64,000 nt of DNA from Candidatus Nezhaarchaeota archaeon (lineage in GTDB: Archaea; Thermoproteota; Methanomethylicia; Nezhaarchaeales; WYZ-LMO8), in contig JARXPG010000002.1 in the NCBI GenBank assembly GCA_029887785.1, positions 1 through 64,000 of the forward strand. Reading direction: 5' to 3'. The position numbers and the translations under genes are program-made. Shown piece by piece: positions 43,976 to 62,773 of this stretch. The number at the start of each line of letters is the position of its first letter. The stretch's first letter is position 1. The notes below the pieces were generated by a model that did no database searches, was not told where the DNA came from, and saw only the letters and a list, made by a program, of their open reading frames with translations.

Positions 43976-44283
43976 GCAACCTCATCAAGAGCAAGAAGGC
44001 TTGGGCAACAATAATAGTACTACTAATTCTAAGCCCAATATTTGGTGTAGTACTAGCTGATATCGTCGGCTATCATGAGCCTCTCGATCTAGCAGCTGAA
44101 GCTATAGGTCTTCGTGATGTGAGCGAGGAAATAACTTGGACTCCATTCTTCGACTACAACGTTCCTGGTTTGCCAGCTGAGATCGGCTACATCATTAGTG
44201 GAGCTATAGGGGTCATTGCTATCACGATGATAGGTTATGGAATCTTAAAATTGGCTGAGAAGAGAGTGAGAAGAAAGGTGTAA
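43972..44283 (+). CDS. PDGLE-domain accessory subunit of the nickel importer (NikN-like)
   Basis: This 103-residue protein has an N-terminal helix, an extracytoplasmic segment and a second helix. The core FFDYNVPGLPAEIGYIISGAIG with preceding GYHEPLDLAAEAIGL corresponds to the PDGLE domain, which in nickel transporters is either fused to NikM or a separate NikN. Cobalt systems instead carry CbiN. It is the main sequence argument that this cluster is for nickel. Confidence 0.85.
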   Translation: MSNLIKSKKAWATIIVLLILSPIFGVVLADIVGYHEPLDLAAEAIGLRDVSEEITWTPFFDYNVPGLPAEIGYIISGAIGVIAITMIGYGILKLAEKRVRRKV

Positions 44284-44286
44284 TCT

Positions 44287-45078: not shown

Positions 45079-45079
45079 A

Positions 45080-46164: not shown

Positions 46165-46181
46165 GGATGGATTATTCATCC
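46165..46181. promoter_or_regulatory. Cobalamin-operator candidate upstream of apgM-cobD
   Basis: GGATGGATTATTCATCC has 8-base arms with one mismatch around a central T. Its reverse reading shares ATAATCCATCC with the cobN site. A TATA-like CTTTATAG at 46187-46194 follows it, so here the site lies just upstream of the rightward TATA box, where it might block TBP or activate. Confidence 0.6.
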
Positions 46182-46239
46182 AGAGTCTTTATAGCTCTGA
46201 ATTTAAGAGACAGCGAGGGGTGTCGGTGGTTTTGAGGAG

Positions 46240-47445
46240 ATGAAGGCTATCATTATAATCGGTGATGGAATGGCTGATCGACCGTTAGAGGAGCTCAACT
46301 TCATGACTCCATTGGAAGCTACTAAAGTAAACAACATGAACTGGCTTGCCTCAAATGGCATTTCAGGGCTTCTCTGTTCAACAGTTCCTGAAAGCGATGT
46401 AGCGAACTTAGCCGTCTTCGGCTATGATCCCTCTAGCGTTTACACTGGTAGAGGGGGGTTCGAAGCTGTTGGAGCTGGAGTCCAACTTTCGGATGAAGAT
46501 TTAGCTTTTAGATGCGACTTCGCCACTATAAACGAGGACTTCGTTGTAATCGATGAGAGAGCTGGTAGAGTAAGAGAAGAAGCTGCTGAGTTAGCGGAGT
46601 TTCTTCAAGATATGCGCTTAAAGAGCTTCCCGGACGTTGAGCTCCTTTTCAAGCAATCGCTGGGATTTAAGGGTGTCCTCATTCTTAGAGGGGAAGGGCT
46701 GTCAGCTAATGTGCATACATCACCGCCTAGGTTAAACCATCCAGCTGACTTGATATGGCCCTTAGACGGATCTCTTGAAGCAAAGAAGACTTGTGAAGTA
46801 TTGAGAGAGCTTATAAGAACATCTTACATCCTCTTAAAGGATCATCCAATCAATAAGAAACGAAGGCTCTTAGGCAAACCTATGGCTAACGTCGTAATTC
46901 CATGGGGGGTCGGTAAGAGACCGTATCTTCAACCTTTCAGTAAAAAGTACAAGTTGAGAGCAGCTTGCATAGCTGCAGCAAGGCTTATTAGAGGTATAGC
47001 GAAGCTAGCCGACATGACCGTGATCGACGTTCCCGGAGCAACTGGAGAAGTAGACACAAACACTAGGGGGAAGGCTGAAGCTGCTCTAAGAGCTCTAAAG
47101 AACCATGACGTAGTCTTCGTACACGTAGGAGGACCTGACGAAGCATCCCATGACGGCGACATTAATGGTAAAATTCTTATCATAAAGAAGATCGATGAGA
47201 TGGTAGGCTTAATCCTGGAGAATGTGATGCTTGAAGACACATGCCTAGTGCTCCTCGCAGACCACGTAACGTCAACGAAGCTCCGAAGACACACCAATGA
47301 TCCAGCTCCAATAACAATAGCAGGCGCGAAGGTGCTTCACGACGGCGTTTTGTACTTTAATGAGAAGGCTGCTGCGAAAGGGTCTCTAGGAAAGATTAGG
47401 CACTTAGACGTCATCCCTATACTACTCAAAATAATGGAATCATGA
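46240..47445 (+). CDS. apgM: ApgM-like phosphoglycerate mutase family protein in a cobalamin operon
   Basis: This 401-residue alkaline-phosphatase-superfamily protein is of archaeal ApgM length. Metal and catalytic elements are present: IGDGMADRP (Asp9), VPESDVANLAVFGYDP (putative nucleophile Ser52), HVGGPDEASHDGD and LLADHVTS. The nucleophile loop reads PESDVAN rather than the PGSDxAH-type spelling I associate with glycolytic ApgM. It shares an operon with cobD and has a cobalamin operator. It may therefore phosphorylate threonine or homoserine-like substrates, or act as a phosphatase, rather than serve glycolysis. That is inference. Confidence 0.8.
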   Translation: MKAIIIIGDGMADRPLEELNFMTPLEATKVNNMNWLASNGISGLLCSTVPESDVANLAVFGYDPSSVYTGRGGFEAVGAGVQLSDEDLAFRCDFATINEDFVVIDERAGRVREEAAELAEFLQDMRLKSFPDVELLFKQSLGFKGVLILRGEGLSANVHTSPPRLNHPADLIWPLDGSLEAKKTCEVLRELIRTSYILLKDHPINKKRRLLGKPMANVVIPWGVGKRPYLQPFSKKYKLRAACIAAARLIRGIAKLADMTVIDVPGATGEVDTNTRGKAEAALRALKNHDVVFVHVGGPDEASHDGDINGKILIIKKIDEMVGLILENVMLEDTCLVLLADHVTSTKLRRHTNDPAPITIAGAKVLHDGVLYFNEKAAAKGSLGKIRHLDVIPILLKIMES

Positions 47446-47472
47446 AGACATAAGGTTAAGGTAGGCTTAGCT

Positions 47473-48621
47473 ATGAGTTGGAAGTGGATTGTAGAGTTAG
47501 TTAAGGAGGAGATTAAAGACCTCAAGCCCTGCGTACATGGTGGAGATGTTTGGAGAATCGCTGAAGAGCAGCGCTTAGAGGTCAGAGAGATAATAGACTT
47601 CAGCGCAAACATCAACCCTCTAGGTCCATCTAAGAGGGTCTTGGATAAGATACGTGAGAACTTATGGAAGATAGTCTACTACCCAGATCCAGAGTGCATG
47701 GAGTTGAGAAAAGCGATATCGCGCTACATAAGCGGAATCAAAGTCGATAACGTAATTATCGGTAACGGCTCAACTGAGCTAATTTACCTATTTTGTGAAG
47801 TATTCGTGAATAAAGGAGATTCGGTCTTAATTCCAATACCTACGTTTGGAGAGTACGAGAGAGCAGTAAGGAAGGTTGGTGGAGTACCGATATACGTGGA
47901 CTTAAGACCTGACTTTAAGGTGACGTCTCGTAGACTTTTAGAAAAGCTGACTAAGCGGGTGAAAGTGATATTTCTATGCAACCCCAACAACCCAACGGGT
48001 ATCTTGGCCTCCTTCGAGGACGTCCTCGAGATAGTTAAGAGGGCAGCTGAGAATAAGGTGCTAGTGGTCGTCGACGAAGCCTTCATAGAGTTTGTAGACG
48101 ATGAAAAGCGTTATTCGCTAGCTACCGAGGTGGAGAGGTATGAGAACTTATTTGTTTTGAGGTCGCTTACAAAAGCCTTTGGTCTTGCAGGTCTCAGAAT
48201 TGGTTATGGAGTTGCCTGCAAAGATATGATAGACATGTTGTCCAAAGCGAAGCTTCCTTGGAACGTCAATACTCTTGCGCAGGTAGCAGCAATAAGTGCT
48301 CTAGAGGATCACGAGCACTTAACGAATACTCGAAGATTCATCAGCGAAGAGAGGAAATTCCTCTTAAGCGAGCTCGAGAAAATTAGTGGCCTTAAAGTCT
48401 TTCCAAGCGATGCGAACTTCATACTAATGGATGTGAGGAGCTTCAAGTTAACGGCCATGCAATTAAAGGAGAAGATGCTATTGCAAGGCATATTGATCCG
48501 AGATTGTAGCTCATTTAGAGGCCTTGACGAGTACTACGTCAGGGTATCTATTAGAAGACGAGAGGAAAATGAAAAGCTCCTAAAATGCCTAAAGAAGTCC
48601 CTGAGCGCTTCAAGTACTTAG
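47473..48621 (+). CDS. cobD: CobD-like threonine-phosphate decarboxylase
   Basis: This 382-residue PLP enzyme of the aminotransferase I/HisC fold has IDFSANINPLGPS at the N-terminus, GNGSTELIYLF, FLCNPNNPTG, VVDEAFIEFV and the PLP lysine in RSLTKAFGLAGLRIGY. The IDFSANINPLGPS opening preceded by HGGDVWRIA is characteristic of CobD/CobC-type proteins, which make (R)-1-amino-2-propanol phosphate from L-threonine phosphate. The location among cobalamin genes supports this over histidinol-phosphate aminotransferase. It follows apgM by 27 bases. Confidence 0.88.
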   Translation: MSWKWIVELVKEEIKDLKPCVHGGDVWRIAEEQRLEVREIIDFSANINPLGPSKRVLDKIRENLWKIVYYPDPECMELRKAISRYISGIKVDNVIIGNGSTELIYLFCEVFVNKGDSVLIPIPTFGEYERAVRKVGGVPIYVDLRPDFKVTSRRLLEKLTKRVKVIFLCNPNNPTGILASFEDVLEIVKRAAENKVLVVVDEAFIEFVDDEKRYSLATEVERYENLFVLRSLTKAFGLAGLRIGYGVACKDMIDMLSKAKLPWNVNTLAQVAAISALEDHEHLTNTRRFISEERKFLLSELEKISGLKVFPSDANFILMDVRSFKLTAMQLKEKMLLQGILIRDCSSFRGLDEYYVRVSIRRREENEKLLKCLKKSLSASST

Positions 48622-48689
48622 AGTTCCCGCAAACAAGGTTTTAAAGCGATTTCCCTAATTCATGATATAAATAAGTGCAATTCCTTTGA

Positions 48690-49340
48690 CTACTTAATCT
48701 TAGAATTCGTTGTAGAGCATCGAACTCTCAGCAATTCTTCAGCTTTCTTAGCTTCATTGATCGTATTGACATTGACCAGCGATTCCACCTCAGTGCTTAA
48801 GTGCTTAACCTCATCGAGAAGGTCCTTACACATAGCTAAATCGGCTCTCAACACATTTAAGCCTACAGGAACCACGAGAATGCCATTAAGCTCAAAGTGA
48901 TAATCAGATTTAAAGCCTAGCTTCTCATAGTCATCTTTCTTCACAACAACTGTTAAAGCTTCTTTACCACTAGCTAAGTACCTCTCCACGACCTCGTCTA
49001 CTATACGACCATTGAGTAGGGGGAGATCAGAGCCAACGACTACGACATCTCTAAGCCCTTGCTCAAGCCATATGATTGAAAGAGCCTCCTTCAAGTCATT
49101 AACATAACCTAACCCTCTAGTTTCAATAATAGCTACCCCTAAATCCCTTACAACACTTCTGGTGTTCGGTGTCCACCTTGATACTGTTACGAAGATCTTT
49201 GATACGTATTTAGATTCTTGAAGAGCCCTTATGACCCTCTTTATCATGGGTCTCCCTAGGATAGGTAAAAGGGGTTTCTCCACGTTTATCCCAAGTCTTG
49301 ACCCTCTACCTCCGGCCATTACCAAACCGGCAATCTCCAA
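48690..49340 (-). CDS. cobY: Adenosylcobinamide-phosphate guanylyltransferase CobY
   Basis: This 216-residue nucleotidyltransferase starts with GLVMAGGRGSRLG and has EKPLLPILGRPMI and VVVGSDLPLLNGRI. CobY is the archaeal replacement for the nucleotidyltransferase function of bacterial CobU and makes adenosylcobinamide-GDP. It overlaps the end of cobS by 22 bases and is the last gene of the cbiB-cbiS-cobS-cobY operon. MobA-like function is excluded by the context. Confidence 0.88.
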   Translation of the reverse strand: MEIAGLVMAGGRGSRLGINVEKPLLPILGRPMIKRVIRALQESKYVSKIFVTVSRWTPNTRSVVRDLGVAIIETRGLGYVNDLKEALSIIWLEQGLRDVVVVGSDLPLLNGRIVDEVVERYLASGKEALTVVVKKDDYEKLGFKSDYHFELNGILVVPVGLNVLRADLAMCKDLLDEVKHLSTEVESLVNVNTINEAKKAEELLRVRCSTTNSKIK

Positions 49341-50089
49341 CTCAAACTCACCGCAATCGCTAACAATGCAATTCCACGTGTAATTTCGTTAATGGCGCCA
49401 AGTACGTCTCCAGTTAGTCCTCCAAACCTTCCTCTAGACACTATGACTATTACGATGCTTGATAGAGCTCCGATAATGCAAGCAATTAATCCAACGATTC
49501 CTAGCACTAGGGAAATAGCGAGAGACATAAGTATGCTGAGCGTCAACTTCATGAATCCATCACCCTCTCTAAACCTCGTAATGAAGAGCTCTCCAAGACC
49601 ACTTCTCGCTGGAGGGCCCATGAAAACTGCGATAACCATTCCAAGCTTAGCTATAGTCTCACCAACTATGATTGATGAAAGGATAAGCCCTTCGGGTATG
49701 GAGCTTAACGACGATATCGTTATCAACGCTACAGCTAAGCCGATAGCTACTGCTGCAGCTCCCGTATATTGATCCTTCATTATTTGAAGTCTCCTTTCCT
49801 TCGATGTTGGAGCTACAACGGCATCGGCGAAGTCCAGTAATCCATCCATGTGGTTAAAGCCCGTAAGCACAAGCAATGTCGTGTACGTTACTGTAGCCCA
49901 CACTAAGCTAGGAGCTTTAAGAAGGCTTAGAGCTAAACCTACAAGCCCAGACAACAGACCTATAATTGAGCCGTAGAGTGGGAAGAGCCACATAAGGCGA
50001 GCAACATCGTTCAAAGTATCACTATCCATACCTACAGGTATTATCGTTAAGAAGGCAAGAACGTTCCTAAGTCTCTTAAGCAAAGACAA
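49319..50089 (-). CDS. cobS: Adenosylcobinamide-GDP ribazoletransferase CobS
   Basis: This 256-residue integral membrane enzyme joins alpha-ribazole phosphate to adenosylcobinamide-GDP. The start LRNVLAFLTIIPVG, the motif TGFNHMDGLLDFADAV with acidic catalytic residues, KDQYTGAAAVAIGL and the C-terminal RGRFGGLTGDVLGAINEI are all diagnostic. Normal length, six to seven helices. It lies one base from cbiS and overlaps cobY. Confidence 0.93.
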   Translation of the reverse strand: MSLLKRLRNVLAFLTIIPVGMDSDTLNDVARLMWLFPLYGSIIGLLSGLVGLALSLLKAPSLVWATVTYTTLLVLTGFNHMDGLLDFADAVVAPTSKERRLQIMKDQYTGAAAVAIGLAVALITISSLSSIPEGLILSSIIVGETIAKLGMVIAVFMGPPARSGLGELFITRFREGDGFMKLTLSILMSLAISLVLGIVGLIACIIGALSSIVIVIVSRGRFGGLTGDVLGAINEITRGIALLAIAVSLSWRLPVW

Positions 50090-50090
50090 C

Positions 50091-51275
50091 TTAACTCCTC
50101 CTAGCCTCTCTTAGGGCTCTGCTGTACATCCTTGATGATGCGCTTGCGATTAGGGCTCCGATCACGTCATCCATGAATGGACCCAATTTACCTATTATCC
50201 CCGGCTTAACCCTATCAAATCTCATGTACTCGAACTGCCCCAAGGTCCCTGCAGCGTAGTTGGCTATAGCCATGCCCAAAATCTCGTCGGCTACGAGGAA
50301 CACCGGATCTTTGGAGTAGCTTGAAGGGGTTAAGCCTGGTATTAGGGCTCTCTTAGCATCTTCCTCAAGTCTTAGCCCAGCAATAACTAGAGAACACACG
50401 TTAACATCGTTCATTAACTCAATAAGCTCCTCTCTGAGAAGCTTAGCCGCCTCGTCTTTCGTCTCAACTCCCGGATGCGGAACGAACATCTCCAAACCGG
50501 TTTCTACCATATCATCGAGGGTTATCCCCCTCTCCTTAAGTCTCTCAACCAAGCTCCTATTAGCCCTCAAACCCTCGTTCAGCTCCAGGGCTCGAACGAG
50601 GGCCTCAAAGACCGACTTACCTATAAGCTCTCCAAGCTTAGTCCCCGGACCTGCATACCTAAGCTTCAAAGCCCCTCCTAATTCAACTACAGCTATCGAG
50701 TCTGTCGTAGTTCCAGTAGCTAGCTCGCCACTATAAGTGCTCCTAACATCTAAGTGAGCTAAAGCCTTGCATTTCGCTTCAGTAGCGGTCTTCACAGCCT
50801 CTATTAGGCATGCATCGGACATGTAGGCTCGAACTAACACGATTATGTTTATAGTTCCCAGGACGTTGCTACATGCCGATTCTCCACAAGAAGAGGCGTT
50901 CGATAGCCCAGCTGTAACTATGGCTGTCACAGCCAAATCACCGTAACTGTATGATGACATACCGTACTTCTCAACGTCGGCAGCCGTCATAAGTCCAACG
51001 ACTTCACCATCGATTCCTAGCTTGTCAATAACCTTCTTAAGATAGCCTTCTGGATCCTTGTGGTCAAAGTCCTTACCGACTTGATGGTTTAAAATGGCCT
51101 TTGCGTATTTAATTCCTCCATTGACTACGGCTGAGCTCACAACTCTCAGAGGCTTCTCGAATGCTATTAGCAACCCCCTCTCTACGACCCTCAAATTAAA
51201 GCCGTTATTGAGCAAGCTCAAGCATATCACCACGAACTTATAATCATGCATCTTAAGGTCAGCAGAGGTAGGCAT
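50091..51275 (-). CDS. cbiS: CbiS: adenosylcobinamide amidohydrolase fused to alpha-ribazole phosphatase
   Basis: This 394-residue protein is a fusion. Residues 1 to about 225 form a CbiZ domain (RVVSSAVVNGGIKYAKAILN, VGLMTAADVEKYG, VTAGLSNASSCGE, HLDVRSTYSGELATGTTTDS). Residues about 235-394 form a PgpA-like CobZ domain (GITLDDMVETGLEMF, VADEILGMAIANYA, LGPFMDDVIGALIASA). The same pair is fused as CbiS in Methanopyrus. The first half salvages cobinamides and the second removes phosphate from alpha-ribazole phosphate. It overlaps the cbiB 3' end, and Met8 (51254) is another start. Confidence 0.88.
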   Translation of the reverse strand: MPTSADLKMHDYKFVVICLSLLNNGFNLRVVERGLLIAFEKPLRVVSSAVVNGGIKYAKAILNHQVGKDFDHKDPEGYLKKVIDKLGIDGEVVGLMTAADVEKYGMSSYSYGDLAVTAIVTAGLSNASSCGESACSNVLGTINIIVLVRAYMSDACLIEAVKTATEAKCKALAHLDVRSTYSGELATGTTTDSIAVVELGGALKLRYAGPGTKLGELIGKSVFEALVRALELNEGLRANRSLVERLKERGITLDDMVETGLEMFVPHPGVETKDEAAKLLREELIELMNDVNVCSLVIAGLRLEEDAKRALIPGLTPSSYSKDPVFLVADEILGMAIANYAAGTLGQFEYMRFDRVKPGIIGKLGPFMDDVIGALIASASSRMYSRALREARRS

Positions 51276-52192
51276 ATAATAATTACATAAAGGAGGACTG
51301 TCATCCTCATCACCTTAATAGCTTTAAGAATGTGATCTGGCTGTAGCGGGTTTAATGGGTCTCCGAGCTCATAGAACCCCTGTTTAACTAATCGTACTCC
51401 CAATATGCCGGCCATGGTCGACATGGGCCAACCGGCGTTGAGACTTTCGGTCTTGGAGTGATCTCTCAAAGCTATCTTCAAGCCATTACGAGCATCTAGA
51501 CCAAGCAACTTAGCTGTTAGCACCATAATTAAAGCAGTAATCCTAGAAGTTAGGAAGTTGAGGGCTGTGTCAAGTCTAGCAGAAAACCAGCCAAAGTCCT
51601 TTAGCTCGCTTGTCTTGTATCCTAGCATGGAGTCCAAGGTGTTCACAGCTCTAAATGCACAAGCTCCTGGAACGCCGAAGAGTGAGAAGTATAGGAGGGG
51701 CGAGGTTATGCCATCAACAGTGCTCTCAGCTATTGACTCTACAGCTGCTGATGCTATGAGTTCCGAGCTAAGCTTTGATGGGTCCCTCCTCGCTATAAAG
51801 GGGATAAACCTCCTAGCTTCCTCCAGGTTCCCTTTCTTCAAAGCTTCAGCAATAGGTCTAGTGTAGTCTGACAGAGACCTGAAGGCAAAGGTGAACTTAA
51901 AGATTAAACCCCCGATGAGTATGTAAGCTAATAAGTGGATAGTCATTAAGCAGTTGAGTAAAAGAAATACAGGTAAGGAGAACGCAGCCACCACTGTTAA
52001 AGCCACTAAAACGCCGAGAAACCTACGTCTCCTTGAAGAGCCCTTGTTGAGGAACTTCAGCTTCCCTATGAGCCATCCAATCCAAACAACCGGATGGTAC
52101 TTACTTGGAGGATCACCTAAGAGCTTATCGAAAGCAAAAGAAGTACAGAGTAAAGCAACCTCTGCTACAAGGCAAATCGTGGTCCTCTCCAA
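51227..52192 (-). CDS. cbiB: Adenosylcobinamide-phosphate synthase CbiB
   Basis: This 321-residue membrane protein attaches aminopropanol phosphate to adenosylcobyric acid. The N-terminal block FDKLLGDPPSKYHPVVWIG is diagnostic. IARRDPSKLSSELIASAAVESIAESTVDGI carries the catalytic motifs (split here only for reading), and NAGWPMSTMAGILGVRL closes the active site. The start is TTG 52192. It heads the leftward operon with cbiS, cobS and cobY. The operator lies 183 bases upstream, and hidden coding sequence may fill that gap. Confidence 0.92.
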   Translation of the reverse strand: MERTTICLVAEVALLCTSFAFDKLLGDPPSKYHPVVWIGWLIGKLKFLNKGSSRRRRFLGVLVALTVVAAFSLPVFLLLNCLMTIHLLAYILIGGLIFKFTFAFRSLSDYTRPIAEALKKGNLEEARRFIPFIARRDPSKLSSELIASAAVESIAESTVDGITSPLLYFSLFGVPGACAFRAVNTLDSMLGYKTSELKDFGWFSARLDTALNFLTSRITALIMVLTAKLLGLDARNGLKIALRDHSKTESLNAGWPMSTMAGILGVRLVKQGFYELGDPLNPLQPDHILKAIKVMRMTVLLYVIIICLPLLTLRCMIISSW

Positions 52193-52320
52193 GTACTATC
52201 CCTCAACACTAACCTTAAAGCCTTAAGCAATAAATTAGAATAGTCAAGACCTACAGAACGTCCGCTCTCAACACTTACCCTCCCAATAAGCCGTTGATCA
52301 GAGCTCCACAGCAATCTCAA
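52165..52320 (-). CDS. Possible short ORF overlapping the cbiB start
   Basis: From TTG 52320 a 51-residue frame runs into the start of cbiB (stop 52167-52165). It contains GRVSVESGRSVGLDYSNLLL and RDSTWRGPRFAL. A second short frame, from ATG 52393 inside the operator region to 52298, ends DVEIAVEL. The two join into one 75-residue product with a single indel near 52300. They fill the otherwise long leader between promoter and cbiB. I do not recognise the family, and this may be non-coding. Confidence 0.35.
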   Translation of the reverse strand: MRLLWSSDQRLIGRVSVESGRSVGLDYSNLLLKALRLVLRDSTWRGPRFAL

Positions 52321-52531
52321 CGTCTCGCTCTCCAGCAGAGCTATGCTCTAACTCGCTGACAGGGTTAAAAAAGTGGTTGGATAAACCATCCATTATCCTT
52401 CGAACCTTATAGTCCATAATCTTGCTTCATACGAGTAAACTCGAAATAGAAGGGTTGCCATTAGCTTTTCATCATTTAATTAGAAAATTCTTAAGTGATG
52501 TAAAACTTCAATTGTCTCTCCGTGATGCGAA
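52193..52531. other. Divergent cbiB/cobT intergenic region
   Basis: It holds the operator at 52375-52391, a reverse-strand TATA candidate (CTATAA at 52407-52412) that would start transcription inside the operator, and the possible short ORFs described separately. The cobT side has AT-rich TTTAATTAG near 52476 but no operator copy of its own. Confidence 0.5.
52375..52391. promoter_or_regulatory. Cobalamin-operator candidate, cbiB operon (and cobT)
   Basis: GGTTGGATAAACCATCC differs from the cobN site by one base over 16 and from the cbiC site by one base over 17. A reverse-strand TATA element about 25 bases to the right places the leftward transcription start inside it. CATTATCC directly follows and could extend the site. 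Confidence 0.7.
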
Positions 52532-53635
52532 GTGAAGAACTTCTCAATTATTGGCAATACTAATGTAGTTCAAGAAGTTGTTGAGAGGATTAGGAAGGGC
52601 AAAGTGATGGTCCTCTACTTCATAGGTTCAACTAAGACGTCAACGATACCTGGGCTTAGTATTGCAGGGGCTACTCCAGAATTGACGTTGTATACGCCTG
52701 CATGCGACGTTGAATACGTGGTTTATGGTAAGCCCAAGAGCTTCGACGTCATACCGGTAACTCCTGAAGGAATACCTACACCAGCCATCATAACTAGGTC
52801 TAGCTTGAAGTTATGTAAAGTACCTTGTGCGATCGTTGACGCTGGCTCAGCTATAGAGCCAAAGGTACCGCACATAGCCCTACCAAGTCGGAGAGTTGGC
52901 GAGACAATAAACACCGGCTCGGCATTACCGTATGAGGTAGCTAGGGCGCTCTACACCGAATCTCAGGTCTTAGCTCGCATGCTTCGTGGAGTTGACGTCT
53001 ACTTAATTGGTGAAAGCATACCTGGAGGCACAACAACTACGTTGGGGATTCTAGTAGCACTAGGCTACGATGCGTGGGGTAAAGTTAGCAGCGCATCTCC
53101 ACTAAATCCTCATGAACTTAAAGAGAGAGTTGTGAAAGAAGGCCTTGAAAGGTCAAGGCTATCGATGGACGAGGCTGAGCGTGATCCGATGAAGGCCGTT
53201 GCAGCACTAGGAGACCCAGTACACGTCTCAATGGCAGGCTTCTTGAAAGGGGCCTTAGAAGAGGGGGCTAGCGTGATATTGGCAGGTGGGACCCAAATGG
53301 CCTCCGTTGTGGCTTTGGCAAAACATGCTGGCGTGAAGCTTCAAAGAACCATAATTGCTACGACTAGGTGGATAGTCTCTGACCAATCATCAAACATAGC
53401 AGCTCTATTCAAAGCGATAGATCCATCAATACCAATAGTATCAATAAACTTAGACTTCTCCGACGCTCCCTACGAAGGACTACGTTATTACGAGAAGGGG
53501 TACGTCAAAGAAGGGGTAGGGGCTGGAGGGACAGCGTTCTTAGCTCATGTACTAACAGGTAAGAACGTCGATGAACTAAAGGAGGTAATATATGAGGAGT
53601 ACGGTGCCCTAATTAAGAGTAAAACCATCAAATAA
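52532..53635 (+). CDS. cobT: Nicotinate-nucleotide:base phosphoribosyltransferase CobT (archaeal type)
   Basis: This 367-residue protein makes the alpha-ribazole phosphate lower ligand precursor. Archaeal CobT features are ATPELTLYTPACDVEYV, GESIPGGTTTTLGILVALGY, ALGDPVHVSMAGFL and VILAGGTQMASVVAL, with the glutamate-containing YYEKGYVKEGVGAGGT near the end. The start is GTG 52532. It diverges from cbiB. There is nothing to show which lower base is used. Confidence 0.9.
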   Translation: MKNFSIIGNTNVVQEVVERIRKGKVMVLYFIGSTKTSTIPGLSIAGATPELTLYTPACDVEYVVYGKPKSFDVIPVTPEGIPTPAIITRSSLKLCKVPCAIVDAGSAIEPKVPHIALPSRRVGETINTGSALPYEVARALYTESQVLARMLRGVDVYLIGESIPGGTTTTLGILVALGYDAWGKVSSASPLNPHELKERVVKEGLERSRLSMDEAERDPMKAVAALGDPVHVSMAGFLKGALEEGASVILAGGTQMASVVALAKHAGVKLQRTIIATTRWIVSDQSSNIAALFKAIDPSIPIVSINLDFSDAPYEGLRYYEKGYVKEGVGAGGTAFLAHVLTGKNVDELKEVIYEEYGALIKSKTIK

Positions 53636-53919
53636 ATAAGCTAATGATTGTGTCAAGCTCTCGGGTGCGATTATGAGGTTTATGTCTTCACGTTCATAGA
53701 TCCTTAACGCTAGGACCTTTGCCTCATCGAACTAAAACCTTCTTGCAATCTCACTAAGAAACAGATGGTCACGTCATATAATTGCTTATAGCGCTGTTTG
53801 ATGCTTGATCTGTTAACTGTAGCGAGACCTCATCGCGTATATCATTTTTAAAGAGCTTGGTCTCTTATTCGCGCGACGGCATAGTAACCTCCGCATAGTC
53901 TAAGAAGGTGAATAAGCCC

Positions 53920-54630
53920 TTATGAAGTCTTATCCTCAAGCTCGTAGCTAGTTATCTCGAGGATCCAATTTCTCCAATAGCCCTCTCTAAGGACCCTCTT
54001 AGCTTCCAAGATCTTTATCCTCATTTTGAAGGTCGGCCCATCAATCACGAAGGTGTGATACTCTCCTCTTTCACCGCATAAGTCGAAGTCTTTGAACTTT
54101 CGAAGTTCCATTAAGTCCTTTATGAAGTTCCCATCGACTCTCCTTCCAACCCACTCCTCTCCAAATATTTCGGTCTTGGCCTTCACGACAATAGCATCGA
54201 AGCCAGCGCCCACAAAGCCCTTGAGCACCTCCTCCCCACTCAATCCCCATAGAGGCTCTATAGCCTCAAGTCCGACTTCGCTACAAACCTTGTTAACCCA
54301 GTCCAGGTGCTCTTGGACGTTAATGTCGCCGAAGACGACCCCCTTAATCTCAAGCTTATTCTTGAGCTCCACTAAGACTTTCTTGAAGTTCTCTTCGTAA
54401 CCATCCCATGATGTTTCTCTCTGAATTAGTGGGATTCCAAGTGCTTTAGATTGAGCTGCTATTAGCTTCGGATCAAGTCCATGAGCTGTAACTCTGCCAG
54501 TATTTGAAACCATGTTTATTAGACATACAACCTCAAACCCTTCTAGGAGTGCTTTGTAGTATGCGTAGCAACAATCCTTACCTCCACTCCAAGACACAGC
54601 CACCCTCATAGTGGACCCCACGACAGGCAT
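53920..54630 (-). CDS. Diphthine-ammonia ligase (Dph6-type ATP pyrophosphatase)
   Basis: This 236-residue PP-loop enzyme has VSWSGGKDCCYAYYKAL at the N-terminus, then VTAHGLDPKLIAAQSKALGIPL and VVFGDINVQEHLDWV. IEPLWGLSGEEVL and GERGEYHTFV complete the family signature. It performs the last amidation of diphthamide on elongation factor 2. Met8 (54609) may be the real start. It is a housekeeping insertion among the cobalamin genes, with no operator at its promoter. Confidence 0.9.
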   Translation of the reverse strand: MPVVGSTMRVAVSWSGGKDCCYAYYKALLEGFEVVCLINMVSNTGRVTAHGLDPKLIAAQSKALGIPLIQRETSWDGYEENFKKVLVELKNKLEIKGVVFGDINVQEHLDWVNKVCSEVGLEAIEPLWGLSGEEVLKGFVGAGFDAIVVKAKTEIFGEEWVGRRVDGNFIKDLMELRKFKDFDLCGERGEYHTFVIDGPTFKMRIKILEAKRVLREGYWRNWILEITSYELEDKTS

Positions 54631-54757
54631 GCACTATATGCATGACGACATCAACCTCATAGATTACGCCAATAACTAACGAATTTTAGAGATTTAAGAG
54701 TTAGCATGGCGTTTCATACATTAATCCCGATGGTCTCCAACACTTCGCCCATAGCCC

Positions 54758-56710
54758 CTAATTCTTATTGAAAATCGGGTAATTGGGGTGATCGTGGAGG
54801 AGTAATCTCGAGATTGCCTCATGGAGGTCAGTGCTCGTCAAATTCTCCAATTTAATATGCACGGCCTTCGCAGCTTTAACTAAGTCAACGATGTACCCTG
54901 GCGTAAATGGATCCTCAGAAACGTCTATCACCGCTACACGTGCGCCTAAATCCCTTAATTTCGTGGATAGATCTACGATCTCTTGCTTAATGTCCCCACC
55001 GAGGGGGACGTTAGCCTTACCATCGGTTATTAATACCACAAGAGGGCTTAGTAAAGAGGGACTTTGAGACCTTCTGACTTCAGATTTCACCAGGTTCAAT
55101 GTTGTAAGGAGGGCATGAGGAAGAGGGGTTCTTCCACCTGTTGGCAGGTTGCTTAGAGCTTCTTGTGCAAGATCAATACTGTTTGTGGGTGGGAGCAAGA
55201 CCTCAGCCGTCGTGCCGCGAAAAGCTATGAAGGCAACTTTATCTCTACGCGTATAGGCATCCAGCAACAACTTTAAAGCAGCACCTTTCGCTACTTCCAT
55301 CCTCCTCTTAGCAGCCATGGATCCACTGGCATCAACAACCAAGATTACCAGTGATCCGACTCTGACTCTACGAACTCTCTCACGTAAGTCCTCATCGGTT
55401 ACCTCTAAAGGTCCTCTTTCCTTGGAACTTGCTATTCGTGCTGCTGCAGCTCTTATCGTTGCGTCAATGGCGATGTCAGATGGCTTGCCTTTGGGAACAC
55501 TGCTGTAAATGTACACCCCTCTACCACCACCTATAATCTTCGTTGACATGGACTTGCCACTTCTCTTAGTCGTAACCCTCTGCTCTCCTTCACTTCTAAC
55601 ATCAATGTCGACGTTGAGATCGGCATTAAAGATGAACTCCTTCGTAGGACTATAGGTTTTCTCTAAACTCGAGCTCTCAGAACCCCCTGAAAGAAGCTCC
55701 TCTAGCTTCTGGCGTGGCATGTGAGGGCGTTCGAAGGGCTTCTTTCTCATTCTATGTGGTAGAGCTAGCTCCATAGCCTCTATCACATCATCTTTATTAA
55801 CGTACTCTCGTCCATTAAAGGCGGCAATGGTCTTAGCAGTTCGCGTCACAACTATAGGAGCTCTATTGCTTACTGCAAGCGTTGAACAAACTCTCGCTAC
55901 ATCGTATAAAAGGTCTTCAGGTATTTGAACTCGAGGAAGTATTTTCTGTGCCATCTCTATTCTACTTCTAAGCTTTCTTTGTTCATCTTCGTACTTGGCT
56001 ATAAAGCCTTGAGGATCGGACTCAAACTCTTCCACTCTCTTCACTATTTCAACTTGAAGCGCTGGATCTGTTATGGGCTCAACCTCAACTTGTAGACCAA
56101 ATCTATCCAGCAATTGTGGTCTAAGCTCTCCTTCCTCAGGATTCATTGTTCCTATCAATATAAAACGACTTGGATGCGAAACTGAAACCCCCTCTCTTTC
56201 AACTATGTTCACACCGCTGGCAGCAACATCCAGTAGCACATCTATGAGGTAGTCATCGAGTAAGTTTACCTCATCTATGTAGAGTATTCCCCTGTTCGCT
56301 TCAGCTAAGAGTCCAGGTTCGAGGGCTCTTATCCCCTCTTTCAATGCTCTTCGAATGTCTAGTGTCCCCACGACTCTATCAACGGTAGCGCTTAGCGGTA
56401 AGTTTACTATCTTGACCTTCCGCTTAATCCACTTAAGCTCCTCTCCCCTGACGCGCCGCTCGTAACAGGAATCACACATCTCGAGGACGTCATCAGGATT
56501 ACAGTTAAACGGACATCCCTCAACAACCTTTATCTCCGGAAGGAGATCTGCTAAGGCTCTGACGGCTGTGGACTTTCCAGTTCCCTTTTGTCCACGTATT
56601 AAGACTCCTCCTATTCTTGGATTTATGGCGTTTAGCAAAAGCGCTTTCTTCATCTTATCTTGACCGACTATCGCACTAAAGGGGAAGACTCGCTTTACAT
56701 GGCGGGTCAC
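54758..56710 (-). CDS. ChlI/ChlD-type AAA+ and von Willebrand A fusion, chelatase motor
   Basis: This 650-residue protein joins a ChlI-like AAA+ ATPase (Walker [11 protein letters not shown] about 39-48, Walker [14 protein letters not shown] about 141-153, [20 protein letters not shown]) to a C-terminal vWA domain with the MIDAS motif [13 protein letters not shown] (460-464). Four cysteines in CPFNC and CDSC (66, 70, 79, 82) may bind a metal. It lies 14 bases after cobN and should provide ATP-driven force for cobalt insertion. Similar fusions occur beside cobN in other archaea. Confidence 0.92.
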
Positions 56711-56723
56711 GATCTCACGACCA

Positions 56724-59700
56724 TTAACACGTCTCTTCTTCTAAGATCTCTTCGGTCTCCAGGTATTCCCTCTCAAGTCTCTTAATGGTCTCCGCATCGG
56801 CCCTCCAGTATCCGCGCTTTGCAGCTTCAAGTAAGCTCTTAACCACTTTGCGATAAGCAAATATATTCACTTTCTTAACTCTTTGCGACCTCTCCCTATC
56901 GAACACCACATTATTTGCGACCCCTTCCCACATCCAATCTTCTATGCCTCTAAGCGTTGCAGCAAGACCAAGCATGTATTCAACACGATCAGCTATCTTA
57001 GTTGCACCATTATATCCATGCTCCAGCATAGCATCAAGCCACTTAGGATTCATAGTTCTCGTTACAATTCCTCTCTTAATGGCCTCTGAAACATCTTCAA
57101 CTTTAACCACCTCCCTAGTGGAATCAGCAACAAGCACTACTGGTCTCCTTCCACTTCTATCCTCAACGGTCTTTGCTAGACCTCCGAGGAACTCGTAGTA
57201 GTGGTCTAGATCTGTTATTTCATAGTCGATGGCGTCCCTCACCTGGGTTACGAGCTCGATATTTGATGACAAGAAGTTTAAGAGGTCCTTCAACTCTACA
57301 CTTCTCTCCCTCTCTCCGTAAGCGAACTTCATGCTCTCAACGTAAGCATTGACTAAGTCGATCTCACTCTTCCACCTTGAGGTCTCTATTAACGTCGTCA
57401 AACTAGTGGCATACTGACCTTCTGGAGGACCAAATATCCTGAAGTAAGCGCTCTCTCCATAAGTTTCTTTAGCCTTGTTGACGTTAGCCTTCACGTAGTT
57501 CATGTCCTCTGGCTCATCGAGATTCGCCACTATTCTTACAGCTCTATCAAGGAGCTCTACGAGGTTGTAGAATGTGTCCCTAAATATCCCGCATATCGTG
57601 ACCACTACATCTATTCTAGGTCTACCGAGCTCTGAGAGAGGTATTACTTCGAGCTCCCTAATGTACAGGCCTCTCCAAACAGGTTTTACACCTAGAAGGT
57701 GGAATATTGCTGCTAGCGTTTCTCCACCGGTCTTCATGGTCTCAAAGGCCCATAAAACAACGCCAACGGCCTTCGGGTACCTCCCATTCTTCTGGTAGAA
57801 CCTCTTAAGGTATTCTTCAGCTATCTTCTTACCTCTCTCCGCGGCTATTTCAGTTGGCAAGTTCGTAGGATCGAGTTGATACATGTTCCTCCCGGTCGGG
57901 TAAACATCTGGGTTCCTAACAAAGTCCCCACCGGGACCCGGCTCGATGAACTTCCCCTCAAGAGCGTTTAAGATGGCTTCAATTTCGTCGGACACCATCA
58001 CCTTCTCGTAAACTTGCTTAAGGAACTCTAGTGACTTTACAATCTTCTCCTCACTTACTCCGCTTATCTTCGGTATTGATTGGTTTAGGAGGTAGTTCTT
58101 TATGATGTTCTTGACTTCTTCCTCGACTTCGCTTAGGATCTTTCCATAGGTCCTTCCATCCGGAGACACCATATGCGGCTTCTCTAAGACCTCTAAGTAG
58201 TTTAGACCTTGAGACTCTACGATGAGCCTATGTAGGCTGCTAATCTCTCCTCTATCATATCTTGAGACACACGCTAAGTACGCTATAATATCGTCGAAGG
58301 ATGGTTTGTCTCCAAGTACGTGGAGTCCTCTAGGAACTTTTGAGCGCTTAAACTCCCACAACTTATCGTATATCTCCTCAACGCTTTCACCAAGCTCATA
58401 CTTCCTTGCTTTCTCAAGAATCCTCTTAGCTACTTCAGCTGCCTCCTCTTCGCTGTACTGTAAGCGATCGAAGTACTCGGACAATAACTTCTCGATCTCC
58501 TGAAAATCGCCATAAAGGCCACTGTCCATTAGCGGGGGGCTTGCATGATTAATTATGAGGGCATAGCTCCTCCTTTTAGCTATTGAGGACTCTGAGTTGT
58601 TAAGTGCATGGTAAACGTATACGTTTGGAAGATCAGCTATCAACATGTCTGGAAAGCACTCAGACGTTAGGCCAACTTCCTTTCCCGGCAAGAACTCAAG
58701 TGTGCCGTGAGTTCCCAGGTGGATTATGACATCTGCTTTAAACTCCTCTCTAATCCACTTGTAAAAAGCTATGTATTGATGATGAGGAGGAAGGCTCTTG
58801 TCGTGATACACTTTCGTGAGATCCTCGTGGCAACCACGTGATGGTTGAAGCCCTATGAACACGTTTCCAAGAGTTATGCCTGGAACCATTATTAAGTCTC
58901 CATAAGCCATTATGTTACCCGGTGGTGGGCCCCATTCGTCAACCACTTGATGTATAGCGCTTCCTGGCAACTCTTTAAGCCACTCGTTATACTTCTTCAA
59001 GGGAACGTGAGTCACTTCGCCTAGCTTTGGTTGAACCCAGTTTCCAGAGTTGATTATCCCCTTAGATATGAATATGTTCCTTATTTCTTCACCTGAAGGA
59101 GTCATTGTAACGTTGTAGCCCCTATCCTTCAAAGCCTTGATCAATCTGGATAGGCTCTCGAAGACGTTGAGGTAGCTTGCTTTACCTAAATTTTCCTCTC
59201 CAGGTGGATAGTTATATATGACTATGGCTACCCTCTTCTGATTATTCTCCTTTCTCCTCAAGTTAACCCATCTTATCGCTCTCTTCACTAGCTTCTCGAC
59301 ACGATCATCAATTGCTACGTATTCATCAAGCTTTACGTCCCCGACGACCTTCCTCCTAATTGCGTGCGTAACTATTGGTTCAATCCTACCATCAAGTTCC
59401 GGTAAGATGACAGTGGTGACAACCTCTACTGGAGGGAGACCATGCTTTGATTTAAGCCACTCATCATAGGTCTTCGTGAACAAGTATACTCCATGTAGCA
59501 CGGGGACGTTAAGTTTCCGTAGTACCTCCTTAGTCTTACTGTGATCGCCACCTATTGGACCTCCTGCAAACCTAAACCATAAAAGGTCTATCAATAAGTC
59601 GATAATTGGTTTGCCGTTCAAGAACATGAACTTCTCTATTGCTAAGTAGTACCTCAAGTCTGAAGAGAAGACTGGTATAACCCCTAGACCCTTCTCCTCT

Positions 59701-60467
59701 AACTTCCTTACTATCAATTCGACTGCAGGATAGAATTGATCATAATAGTAACCACTGTAAGATAGTAGACCGATTAATGGGCGATCTTTGAAGTTGTAAG
59801 ATTGAAGGTATTGTTGGACATCGATGAAGATCTCGTTAGTTTCGAATTTCTTGATGTACATAGAGGGCATGGCCACTGGTTCGGGTATGGCTACATTAAC
59901 TTTCACTCCACAGTACTCCTTCAATAACAAGAGAAGCATGGCATAGTAACTTTGAAACGTTGGATGTTCACGATATCTCAATAGTAAGCAATAGTTCCTA
60001 GCATCCTTGAACACGCCGAAAGGCAAGATCTTGCCTAACCTCTCAAATCTATCCCGCATCTTCAGTATAGCTCCGTAATCCAGTTTCCTACCCTTGAAAA
60101 ACCGCTTCATTAGAGGCATATTCCTTAAACTCATGAACCTACCAAGGGAGAAGCTTCCAAGTCGTGTGAGACTATTGATTTCTGGAGATCCTCCAACAAG
60201 GACGATAACATTGTTCTTAAGATCCTTAAGAGTCTCACATACCAACTTGCTAACGTGATCTCCCCCCATGACGGTGAGCAAAACAATGTGAGAAGACCTT
60301 AGATCATCAACAAACTTCTGAAGATCAACCTTCCCTTCATTGACTTCAAGGGTGTTATAAAAACGGAAGTCAAGAGCCCCACCAATAACCTCGTTAACCT
60401 TCTTCACAGCTTCTAAGAGACATGGCCTGAGAGAGTAATCGACCATTGTTATCCTGCATACAACCAC
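56724..60467 (-). CDS. cobN: Cobaltochelatase large subunit CobN
   Basis: This 1247-residue protein is normal length for CobN/BchH. Conserved segments are [38 protein letters not shown] (read across its course), [40 protein letters not shown] and [14 protein letters not shown]. It inserts cobalt into the corrin ring together with the ChlID protein. The GTG start is preceded by GAGGTG at five bases. The operator and a TATA box lie just upstream. It may also handle another tetrapyrrole metal step, but cobalt fits the neighbours best. Confidence 0.95.
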
Positions 60468-60481
60468 AGTAACACCTCGCT

Positions 60482-60497
60482 GGATGGATTATCCAAC
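60482..60497. promoter_or_regulatory. Cobalamin-operator candidate, cobN-chlID operon
   Basis: Read on the transcribed strand the site is GTTGGATAATCCATCC, with the 11-base palindrome TGGATAATCCA as its core. The reverse-strand TATA element CTTTATAT (60507-60514) lies 25 bases from the site's promoter-distal end, so transcription would start inside it. The ribosome-binding GAGGTG follows three bases later. Confidence 0.7.
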
Positions 60498-60690
60498 TGA
60501 TTCCCCATATAAAGCTTGCCTACGCCTTTCCCCAAGAGGTTAAGTACCCTTCACATCAATCCTAAGATGAGGTGTCTTCCTCTTTGCTTTACGTCAAGTA
60601 AACTGAACATCATCAATGTCAGCGATTTCGATGTATTCTCCAAAGTCCAGCACCCATGAGCATCACGTTATGAATTAATGGCCTATAATT

Positions 60691-61483
60691 TTATAGAAGT
60701 AGCTTGTCAATTAGCGCTAATAGCACTATCATAATCAATGTTACCACTCCGATTGAAATGTGGCTTCTCGGAATAGATTCGAGCTTAAGGTTAAACAGAT
60801 TGCCTCCCTCGTACCCCCTAGCCATCATAGCTATTCCAACTCTCACAGCTCGATGGTAGGATCTTACAATTAGCATGCCAAAGAGCTCTCCATAAGCTCT
60901 GAGTCTCGTAATGTATCCAACATCTTTTGAATGGCTTCCTCTAGCTTTTTGGGCTCTATACATTCTACTTGCTTCTCTAGAAATTACGAAAAAGAATCGA
61001 AGCGTGAGAAGAGTAGTGTCTAGTAGAGCCGAGGGTACGCGAAACCAAGCTAAAGCTCCTAGCACACTAATTATCGAGGTTGTTGAAATTAGAAGATTTA
61101 GAATAGTAACTGTTGCTAGGCAGCGCGTGAATATTAAGATGGAGAGGAGTAATCCTTCTGAGTAAACTGGAAAGACGATGCTAAAAACTACTGTTGAACC
61201 GTAAGTAAATGAATGAATGATGGTGACTATTGATATTATGTACAGAGGGTAAAGAAGCCGCTTGAAAAAACTGCTTAATTGGGACTTTGAATATTACGGC
61301 AATTAATAGGCATGAGACGAAAACTAAGAGGATTGTTTGCCAATGAGCCATTAGTGAAGTGGCTATTATGGTTGCTATCGTACAAATCAGCTTCACTCTA
61401 GCATCTAGCTTATAGAGCAGACTCTTCGCATTATCATCTCTAAGCTCCAGGCTATGATCCATGAAGTCATATTCTAACTTCAT
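60691..61483 (-). pseudogene. cbiQ: Second CbiQ, split by a frameshift at an A6/T6 run
   Basis: Frame one (61483 to about 61270) gives the N-terminus, LLYKLDARVKLICTIATIIATSLMAHWQ, and ends in nonsense after KQFFQ. Removing one T from the T6 run (A6 on the plus strand at 61265-61270) continues as QFFKRLLYPLYIISIVTII and runs without interruption into LRFFFVISREASRMYRAQKARG and GIAMMARGYEGG, both CbiQ coupling signatures, ending at 60691. The joined protein has the full T-component length. It is either an assembly indel, a true inactivation, or ribosomal frameshifting at the run. No CbiO gene follows. Confidence 0.85.
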
Positions 61484-61589
61484 TCCTCATCCGTCTTAAC
61501 CTAAATTCCCTACCGATGATTAGGAAGGTGAAGAAGCTTATTGTCGTCAATATGCCCACAAGTGGATCTCCACTAAGCCACTCAAACAT
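61467..61589 (-). CDS. 40-residue single-helix membrane protein in the cobalt importer operon
   Basis: ATG 61589 opens a 40-residue frame ending at TGA 61469-61467, overlapping the cbiQ start by 17 bases and three bases after the cbiN stop. The product begins MFEWLSGDPLVGIL, has one helix (TTISFFTFLIIG) and ends with basic REFRLRRMRNEVRI. That is the layout of a small bitopic protein with a cytoplasmic positive tail. GAGGG lies just before the ATG. Its packed position between cbiN and cbiQ suggests a small subunit of the transporter. I do not recognise the family. Confidence 0.65.
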   Translation of the reverse strand: MFEWLSGDPLVGILTTISFFTFLIIGREFRLRRMRNEVRI

Positions 61590-61592
61590 CCC

Positions 61593-61877
61593 TCATCCCT
61601 CACTCTTAGACTTTCCAAAAACCGTGGGCGTTAAGTAGCCAATTATGAAGCCGCTCAGAGCCCCGACAATCGTAAAGGCAATGTACTCACCAACCTCATC
61701 TAGCTCTATTAAGTGTCCATAGCTAAGCCCAAGCCTCTTCGCCTCTTCCTCCATGATGGATATGTAAGCAGTTTCCATGTCTCCACCTACGATGAACAAG
61801 CCAATGTACGTTGAAATCATCATGGTGATTACTATAATTATCATTAGGAAGAGGGAGCATTTAGTGAAGTTATCCAA
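61593..61877 (-). CDS. cbiN: CbiN-like subunit of the cobalt ECF importer
   Basis: This 94-residue protein has two helices with an extracytoplasmic loop. GGDMETAYISIMEE resembles the GADGxA region of CbiN and EYIAFTIVGALSGFIIGYLTPTVFG the second helix (E-x-x-F...GA...GY). It differs from the PDGLE protein of the nickel cluster and is the argument for cobalt here. It overlaps the end of cbiM by eight bases. Confidence 0.75.
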   Translation of the reverse strand: MDNFTKCSLFLMIIIVITMMISTYIGLFIVGGDMETAYISIMEEEAKRLGLSYGHLIELDEVGEYIAFTIVGALSGFIIGYLTPTVFGKSKSEG

Positions 61878-62523
61878 GTCTCTTCACCCCTCTAAGAACT
61901 TCAGGGCGGCTTACTACAATGTATTTAACCATTATCGCTGTGATTATGGACTCCACGATTGCTAGGGGGAGCTGGGTGGGCATGAAGCCTAGCGAAAGCA
62001 GACCCCAATGGTACACGAAGTTCTCTGAATACAGCGAGAGAGCTAGCTGCCCAGCTGTTGTAAGGTAAGTAGCTATATCCCCCATGAACCCCGCAGCTCC
62101 AGCCGAAAGCCAAATCGGAGCCTTAAATCTTCTGAGGGCAACATACACTCCATATCCTATAAAGCCTCCTACAACTCCTAGAGACACGGTGTTAGCACCC
62201 AACGTTGTCAACCCACCGTGGGCCAAGAACATTTGAAAGAACAAAGCTATGAAAGCTAACACCACGCTCTCAAAAGGACCAACAATTATGGCTGAGAGGG
62301 CTACCCCACAAGGATGTGAGCATGATCCTGTAACTGGTACTGGAATGTGCCATACAGATAAGATAAATATCACAACCCCCATGAAGGCCAGCATAGACAT
62401 GTAAGTTGGATCCTCTCTCCTCCTTCTTGCAATCTTCGCTACGCCTACTATCAAAAATGGTATCGCAATGGCAAACCAAACTACTACCCATAATGGAGAA
62501 AGAAGACCATCCATTATATGCAT
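61870..62523 (-). CDS. cbiM: ECF cobalt transporter substrate-binding subunit CbiM
   Basis: This 217-residue membrane protein starts MHIMDGLLSPLW when ATG 62523 is used, which restores the exposed Met-His metal site that CbiM needs. The frame is open to a GTG at 62532, but that would bury the site. Loops VTGSCSHPCGVALSAIIVGP and LAHGGLTTLGANTVSLGVVG correspond to the two other signature regions, with cysteines (SCSHPCG) in place of the more usual residues. It heads the operon cbiM-cbiN-small protein-cbiQ under an operator at 62534-62554. Confidence 0.92.
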   Translation of the reverse strand: MHIMDGLLSPLWVVVWFAIAIPFLIVGVAKIARRRREDPTYMSMLAFMGVVIFILSVWHIPVPVTGSCSHPCGVALSAIIVGPFESVVLAFIALFFQMFLAHGGLTTLGANTVSLGVVGGFIGYGVYVALRRFKAPIWLSAGAAGFMGDIATYLTTAGQLALSLYSENFVYHWGLLSLGFMPTQLPLAIVESIITAIMVKYIVVSRPEVLRGVKRLG

Positions 62524-62533
62524 AGGAATCACT

Positions 62534-62554
62534 GGCTGGATATATTATCCAGCC
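62534..62554. promoter_or_regulatory. Cobalamin-operator candidate, cbiM2 operon
   Basis: This is the most perfect site: arms GGCTGGATA and TATCCAGCC are exactly complementary around TAT. The reverse-strand TATA element (plus strand CATATAAAAC, centred near 62563) puts the transcription start near 62537, inside the site. The cbiM ATG at 62523 follows 11 bases later. Confidence 0.72.
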
Positions 62555-62752
62555 AACTCATATAAAACTTACTATCAACGTAATTACTGTTGGAAAGAGA
62601 TGTCTTAAAGCAAGATGTTGGCTTCTCTGTTTATGAGGTCGTGACCGCACTTAGCCTACGATATTAAGGTTAGATGGTCAACTTACTCAGCCATTTTAAA
62701 GACGAGGTCTAGAGTGAAGTTTAAATTGTTGGTTAGCTTCACTTATCCTTAA

Positions 62753-62773
62753 GGCTGGATGGGTTATCCAACC
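62753..62773. promoter_or_regulatory. Cobalamin-operator candidate, cbiC-cbiD operon
   Basis: GGCTGGAT on the left and TTATCCAACC on the right frame three Gs. The site matches the cbiM site at 17 of 21 positions. TATA-like TTTAAATT at 62720-62727 places transcription start just before it. The cbiC ATG chosen here (62774) directly follows the last operator base. Confidence 0.7.

Follow-up and report, generated by a model that had tools for sequence, protein, structure and literature searches.

Genes of the kinds treated here are controlled in bacteria by the cobalamin riboswitch (RF00174), which is an RNA element, whereas the elements described below are DNA operators. Regulators of the CarH/LitR type are B12-binding repressors. 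NikR is a ribbon-helix-helix nickel regulator and has a widely spaced palindromic site, in contrast to the short spacing of the archaeal operator. Rodionov et al. (2003) reportedly described a "CBL-box" in some archaea and attributed it to a hypothetical B12 regulator of these organisms. The subject of this work is a set of five palindromic elements in a 64,000-nucleotide stretch of a Candidatus Nezhaarchaeota archaeon genome (contig JARXPG010000002.1, positions 1 to 64,000), which is referred to below as the window. We conclude that these elements are very probably operators of one archaeal cobalamin regulon of the CBL-box/CblR type, with a DUF4443/PH0730 family protein as its candidate cobalamin-responsive repressor.

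A cobalamin regulon has already been predicted in Pyrococcus furiosus, where RegPrecise names the regulator "CblrR (unknown)", an entry still without an assigned protein in 2023 (PMC10746257). An earlier note on this DNA knew of no described archaeal B12 operator with this sequence; a regulon of this kind is nevertheless not without precedent. The two systems are alike in that a palindromic DNA operator serves archaeal cobalamin genes, and Thermococci carry the 15-mer of the window at B12-linked genes; the window motif may be the one published for Pyrococcus. While the regulator of the Pyrococcus regulon was left unnamed, here the regulon is extended to genomes of the Methanomethylicia class and to Bathyarchaeal, Nitrososphaeria-type, Hades-, Helarchaeal and Methanomassiliicoccales genomes, and a candidate is named. 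The regulon is of a kind already predicted for archaea; DUF4443/PH0730 as its regulator is new as far as the literature found shows.

Operators in the window

All five near-identical elements were located in the window where the earlier note had placed them (Table 1), and each belongs, as it had claimed, to a cobalt or cobalamin gene promoter. Alignment revealed that TGGAT-N5-ATCCA is common to all five, which amounts to 10 fixed bases, inside GGNTGGAT-type arms. Operator 4, in front of cbiM, is indeed a perfect 9+3+9 palindrome, GGCTGGATA-TAT-TATCCAGCC. Together, the targets comprise nearly the whole anaerobic cobalamin pathway, cobalt insertion, cobalt uptake and the nucleotide loop.

The exact pattern occurs five times in the window, every match being one of the five elements, while 0.10 matches were expected based on 100 dinucleotide shuffles. 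In the whole genome (1,492,324 bases, two contigs), 10 exact matches were observed, versus two for the reversed control. The remaining five matches fall within open reading frames (ORFs) of unrelated genes, so promoter matches are found only at the five cobalamin and cobalt sites. The reversed pattern is a biased control, given the rarity of TAGGT in coding frames; it was dropped as the only control, and gene position and shuffles were also used. The 11-base core TGGATAATCCA, previously taken as the defining motif, proved not to be specific: with one mismatch allowed, it matched the genome 26 times, and so did its reversed control.

According to the earlier note, in four cases a TATA box lies close enough for the element to cover or abut the start of transcription. 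This holds in part. Operators 3 (cobN) and 4 (cbiM) lie approximately 10 bp past a TATA box and overlap the expected transcription start. Operator 5 (cbiC) has a TATA-like box some 30 bp upstream of it, and the apgM and cbiB/cobT operators are upstream of the TATA box. In the latter case, TATA-like boxes are present on both flanks, with the operator directly upstream of the TATA box on each side.

A cobalamin riboswitch was rejected as the controller of these genes. The RF00174 covariance model detected none in 41 genomes, the window organism's included, or in positions 42000-64000 of the window, while 8 of 14 control genomes were positive.

Conservation of the operator in archaea

Scanning of further genomes, which the earlier note had suggested for related ones, revealed the same operator at B12-linked promoters in many archaeal phyla. 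In a set of 81 genomes (the window organism's own included), the exact 15-mer outnumbers the biased reversed control in most. In class-level relatives, promoter copies precede genes for btuF-type binding proteins, energy-coupling factor (ECF) S components with DUF4430 proteins, chlID, cbiM and apgM, as well as the methanol:corrinoid methyltransferase MtaB and the corrinoid protein MtaC. Exact-match counts in the f12 genomes were scattered, with none at cbiB and with only a cbt/DUF4443 site prominent, and were set aside as evidence.

The near-perfect form WGGWTGGATWATCCAWCCW was also used to scan a collection holding one genome per species (about 85,000 species), and at least 80 stretches were found. 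Among the 80 listed, 66 are archaeal and 14 bacterial; the archaeal ones belong to Bathyarchaeota, Nitrososphaeria, Thaumarchaeota, Aigarchaeota, Methanomethylicota, Hadesarchaea, Helarchaeota, Methanofastidiosia, Methanomassiliicoccales and others. The 68 listed archaeal sites comprise 65 that lie between genes or at a gene 5' end, one within a gene and two at contig ends, while 8 of the 14 listed bacterial sites are within genes (Fisher p ~1e-6). A TATA box is mostly found 6-15 bp upstream of the listed archaeal sites. The 87 proteins adjoining these sites include up to 15 ECF S components, 11 periplasmic binding proteins, five DUF4443 proteins, three each of anaerobic ribonucleotide reductase, McrB and ApgM-type proteins, and two each of B12-binding and DUF4430 proteins.

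The DUF4443/PH0730 family as candidate regulator

A co-occurring helix-turn-helix (HTH) gene, which the earlier note had advised looking for, was found in the winged-helix family DUF4443, the sole DNA-binding family that recurs next to the operators. The five DUF4443 proteins among the neighbours of the 68 listed sites compare with approximately 0.09 expected by chance; two of them are near-identical, and for four proteins the tail probability is ~3e-6. In Helarchaeota (L434), the order is operator-btuF-btuC-btuD-DUF4443; in Thermococci (L432), the operator is followed by the methylmalonyl-CoA mutase (MCM) gene and DUF4443, and in two Thermoproteota genomes (L353, L354) by genes for an ECF S component, DUF4430 and DUF4443. 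In Bathyarchaeum tardum (L435), an operator-linked HTH-DUF4443 pair is divergent from chlID-btuFCD.

Further contexts were observed. The operator lies between DUF4443 and divergent cbtBA in three genomes (L322, L333 and, with a one-mismatch site, L331), between DUF4443 and genes of ECF S or DUF4430 proteins at four loci (L212, L238, L270, L275), and at the start of the DUF4443 gene itself at one (L265). In Hadesarchaea (L381), an operator-ECF S-DUF4430 array is convergent with DUF4443, and at two loci (L323, L328) DUF4443 adjoins btuD, approximately 5.4 kb from cbiB and the cbiB operator. The contexts span Thermococci, Nitrososphaeria-type archaea, Bathyarchaeota, Hadesarchaea, Helarchaeota and Methanomassiliicoccales. 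Three Thermococcal neighbours initially read as mutase genes divergent from DUF4443 turned out to be antisense frames; the true mutase genes lie upstream of DUF4443 and share its orientation. Based on these gene contexts, we strongly infer that the DUF4443 (PF14544)/PH0730 winged-helix protein is the binder of the operators and thus the candidate regulator.

The DUF4443 protein of the window organism scores 70.8 bits against PF14544 (cut-off 27) and 35.1 bits against PF22167 (cut-off 30.2). The family profile matches PH0730 with an E value of 4.6e-37, and it also matches HTH domains of the CggR/SorC and DtxR/MntR types. An AlphaFold2 model based on five DUF4443 sequences (predicted local distance difference test score of 86) matches PDB 2p8t, the PH0730 structure, over 185 columns; the next structural match is the CggR DNA-binding domain on its operator. 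The candidate matches this family (PF14544 with PF22167; PDB 2p8t) over its full length, in both sequence and fold. Apart from DUF4443 and HTH domains, the only Pfam domain detected in DUF4443 proteins is DUF2111, which one paralogue carries. No invariant histidine is present in the alignment, and a fold search for a ligand domain returned as informative matches only PH0730 itself and winged-helix proteins. For P. furiosus, the family has been listed as a winged HTH type, with no function given (PMC6316755).

Among genomes chosen by the operator alone, 26 of 27 archaeal and none of six bacterial ones encode DUF4443. Plain co-occurrence was rejected as proof: with DUF4443 present in nearly all of these archaea, it is only supportive, and the case for DUF4443 is carried by adjacency and by an absence test. 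In three genomes that are at least 95% complete and lack DUF4443, 14 of 16 exact 15-mer matches are within ORFs, and the two intergenic ones lie away from B12 genes, so none is at a B12 promoter. Class genomes that do encode DUF4443, by comparison, have 27 of their 46 matches in 5' regions (Fisher p 0.0015). Two genomes in which cbiB is present and DUF4443 was not found have, respectively, no exact operator match (G057) and no match at a B12 promoter (G050).

Thermococcal targets and the signal

Thermococcal targets were studied in 12 genomes of the phylum to which the Methanofastidiosia match belongs, Thermococci being judged by PH0730 relatives and gene content. The box TGGATAWWWTATCCA is repeated at the genes for anaerobic ribonucleotide reductase (nrdD), the MCM large subunit, its B12-binding subunit and ADP-forming acyl-CoA synthetase, and a related box, TGGATGATTAATCCA, is located upstream of meaB. 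Since these targets include a B12-independent ribonucleotide reductase together with a B12-dependent mutase, the signal is more likely cobalamin than a metal, and cobalamin is presumed here in preference to cobalt or an intermediate. The Thermococcal targets are in line with the cobalamin regulon predicted for P. furiosus. The earlier note had left the choice between a metal- and a B12-responsive protein; a DNA-binding regulator encoded elsewhere is supported, and of the two signals B12 is favoured.

Proposed mechanism and alternatives

The inverted repeat GGNTGGATN...NATCCANCC is most likely the binding site of a dimeric DUF4443/PH0730 winged-helix protein. With enough cobalamin in the cell, the protein would be bound at the promoter, either covering the transcription start or abutting the TATA box and the TFB-recognition element (BRE), and would block recruitment of TBP, TFB and RNA polymerase, hence initiation. 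A drop in cobalamin would release the genes of the pathway and of cobalt uptake. Repression is the direction of control that we infer from site placement: a typical site lies a short distance past the TATA box, where a repressor acting on initiation would be expected.

Several observations weigh against this proposal. In the window organism's genome, the one DUF4443 copy (C1:124210, contig C1, ~124.2 kb) is unlinked to the regulon, as the earlier note had expected of the regulator, and has no operator of its own. A B12-binding domain is not detectable by Pfam in DUF4443 members, whereas CarH/LitR regulators, likewise DNA-binding proteins of the kind proposed here to answer to B12, carry such a domain fused to an HTH. 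DUF4443 is nearly universal, being found in 68 of the 81 relatives and in 92 of 101 genomes of the Methanofastidiosia/Thermococci phylum, and some genomes that encode it are without exact sites (e.g. G004 and G006). One Bathyarchaeal genome with a site, of a completeness that is not known, showed no DUF4443. Finally, in Methanomassiliicoccales the same arms and a DUF4443-DUF2111 protein are found at atwA and mcrB, so not every member of the family need answer to cobalamin.

The near-universal, single-copy state of the gene and its unlinked position would also fit a real regulon bound by another protein, with DUF4443 a B12-controlled gene or a partner, and in B. tardum a second HTH gene precedes DUF4443. 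We consider this quite unlikely: DUF4443 has a CggR-like winged helix, it is found again and again near operators, in varied gene contexts and in several phyla, while no other DNA-binding family recurs, and B12-promoter operators are missing where DUF4443 is missing. It is unlikely, too, that the protein senses cobalt or another metal and that the regulon serves cobalt homeostasis. The targets do include cbiMNQ, cobalt chelatase and, in other archaea, cbtAB, and the N-terminal fold of DUF4443 also resembles the metal regulators MntR and DtxR; however, btuF, ECF S components, B12-independent ribonucleotide reductase, MCM and corrinoid methyltransferases as targets fit cobalamin status, and a second ECF transporter in the window has no operator.

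Activation rather than repression by the DUF4443 protein appears quite improbable. The apgM and cbiB/cobT operators, upstream of the TATA box, are in an activator-like position, and MCM and corrinoid methyltransferase genes are controlled together with the supply of their cofactor, but most sites are between the TATA box and the start, and one Thermococcal target, nrdD, encodes the B12-independent isozyme. A chance or repeat origin of the elements is practically negligible: although a single 15-mer match is common (~10 per genome, half of them in genes), five matches versus 0.1 expected in the window and the confinement to promoters across phyla, i.e. conservation, refute it. With a DUF4443 repressor as the favoured explanation, the regulator question becomes testable at once: the structure of PH0730 has been solved (2p8t), and Thermococcus, which is open to genetic work, has orthologues of the candidate. 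The operator motif can also help to locate B12-linked and B12-uptake genes in uncultured archaea; the genes that it flags include ECF/DUF4430 transporters, a TrpD-like phosphoribosyltransferase and a NifH-like protein.

Methanomassiliicoccales and mcr genes

At four Methanomassiliicoccales loci (L369, L372-L374), the gene of a DUF4443-DUF2111 protein is divergent, across a 21-bp operator, from the gene of an AtwA-like ABC ATPase (methyl-coenzyme M reductase activation). At three (L210, L230, L267), a 17-bp operator precedes mcrB. A short DUF4443 paralogue is additionally encoded in every one of these genomes. The system is likely used at the mcr genes of Methanomassiliicoccales as well, which is new as far as the literature found shows. 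More tentatively, and with somewhat less than even confidence, DUF4443 proteins may be archaeal tetrapyrrole-cofactor regulators: a cobalamin repressor in most phyla, plus a DUF2111 paralogue that would control mcr and the activation ATPase through the same arms with 17- or 21-bp spacing, linking corrinoid/F430 status to methanogenesis.

Genes under operator control and other associated genes

The operators and the genes behind them are listed in Table 1. Several gene names were assigned by inspecting translations; those checked against Pfam carry Pfam identifiers or scores. Homologues of cbiB were found in 102 of 200 genomes of the phylum.

Table 1. Operators and associated genes in the window
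Feature	Position	Strand	Context	Support
Operator 1	46165..46185	.	before apgM-cobD, immediately upstream of TATA box	exact match 46168-46182
Operator 2	52375..52395	.	between divergent cbiB-cbiZ/cobZ-cobS-cobY operon and cobT	exact match 52378-52392
Operator 3	60478..60498	.	cobN-chlID (cobalt chelatase) promoter	exact match 60481-60495
Operator 4	62534..62554	.	cbiMNQ cobalt transporter promoter	exact match 62537-62551
Operator 5	62753..62773	.	corrin-ring operon promoter, ATG immediately after	exact match 62756-62770
ApgM-family metalloenzyme	46240..47445	+	first gene after operator 1; also behind operators in relatives	PF10143 8e-41
cobD-like pyridoxal phosphate enzyme (threonine-phosphate decarboxylase)	47473..48621	+		ORF, by inspection
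cobY-like nucleotidyltransferase	48690..49340	-		ORF, by inspection
cobS-like cobalamin synthase	49319..50089	-		ORF, by inspection
CbiZ fused to PgpA-type (CobZ-like) domain	50091..51275	-		PF01955 8e-61, PF04608 4e-12
cbiB	51227..52192	-	first gene of leftward operon behind operator 2	served as CbiB query
cobT-like phosphoribosyltransferase	52532..53635	+	behind operator 2	ORF, by inspection
ChlI/ChlD-type chelatase subunit	54758..56710	-		PF01078, VWA, AAA
cobN-like chelatase large subunit	56724..60467	-	behind operator 3	ORF
cbiM + cbiN (ECF cobalt transporter)	61593..62532	-	behind operator 4	cbiM homologues, ORFs
cbiC	62759..63442	+	behind operator 5; first gene of cbiC-D-E-T-L-F-G-H-hemB-hemC-cobA-hemD

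The operon that begins with cbiC runs beyond the end of the window, and the true start of cbiC is probably the ATG at 62774, right behind operator 5. The operator-controlled cbiQ (60691-61483, minus strand) is broken into two frames, 61181-61483 and 60691-61065, near an A-run at ~61262-61274, through either a sequencing error or a true frameshift. This cbiMNQ set is without a cbiO of its own at its locus in the window. The second ECF set (43322-45961, plus strand), made up of cbiM/nikM-like, PDGLE-like, cbiQ and cbiO genes, adjoins the cobalamin genes and may serve nickel or another demand.

An ApgM-family gene is located behind an operator in several genomes (L117, L145, L218, L269 and the window's, where it precedes cobD); the enzyme might add or take away a phosphate in the nucleotide-loop branch, for example that of threonine phosphate. 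An ATP pyrophosphatase of the Diphthami_syn_2 type is encoded among the B12 genes of the window (53920-54630) and, in distant archaea (L323, L328, L375, L431), beside or near DUF4443; a so far unrecognised role in cobalamin metabolism is possible. Pairs of ECF S component and DUF4430 genes behind an operator (L119, L126, L353, L354, L381 and many of L202-L281) probably encode archaeal cobalamin transporters of the ECF type that include a binding protein at the surface. In two class-level relatives (L121, ~3635; L138, ~3288), the operator precedes a Glycos_transf_3 (TrpD/thymidine-phosphorylase-like) gene, possibly an alternative base phosphoribosyltransferase. In a genome of the same family (L128, 3181-5080), genes for a double BtuF-like protein, a methyltransferase and a NifH/BchL-like ATPase are flanked by operators.

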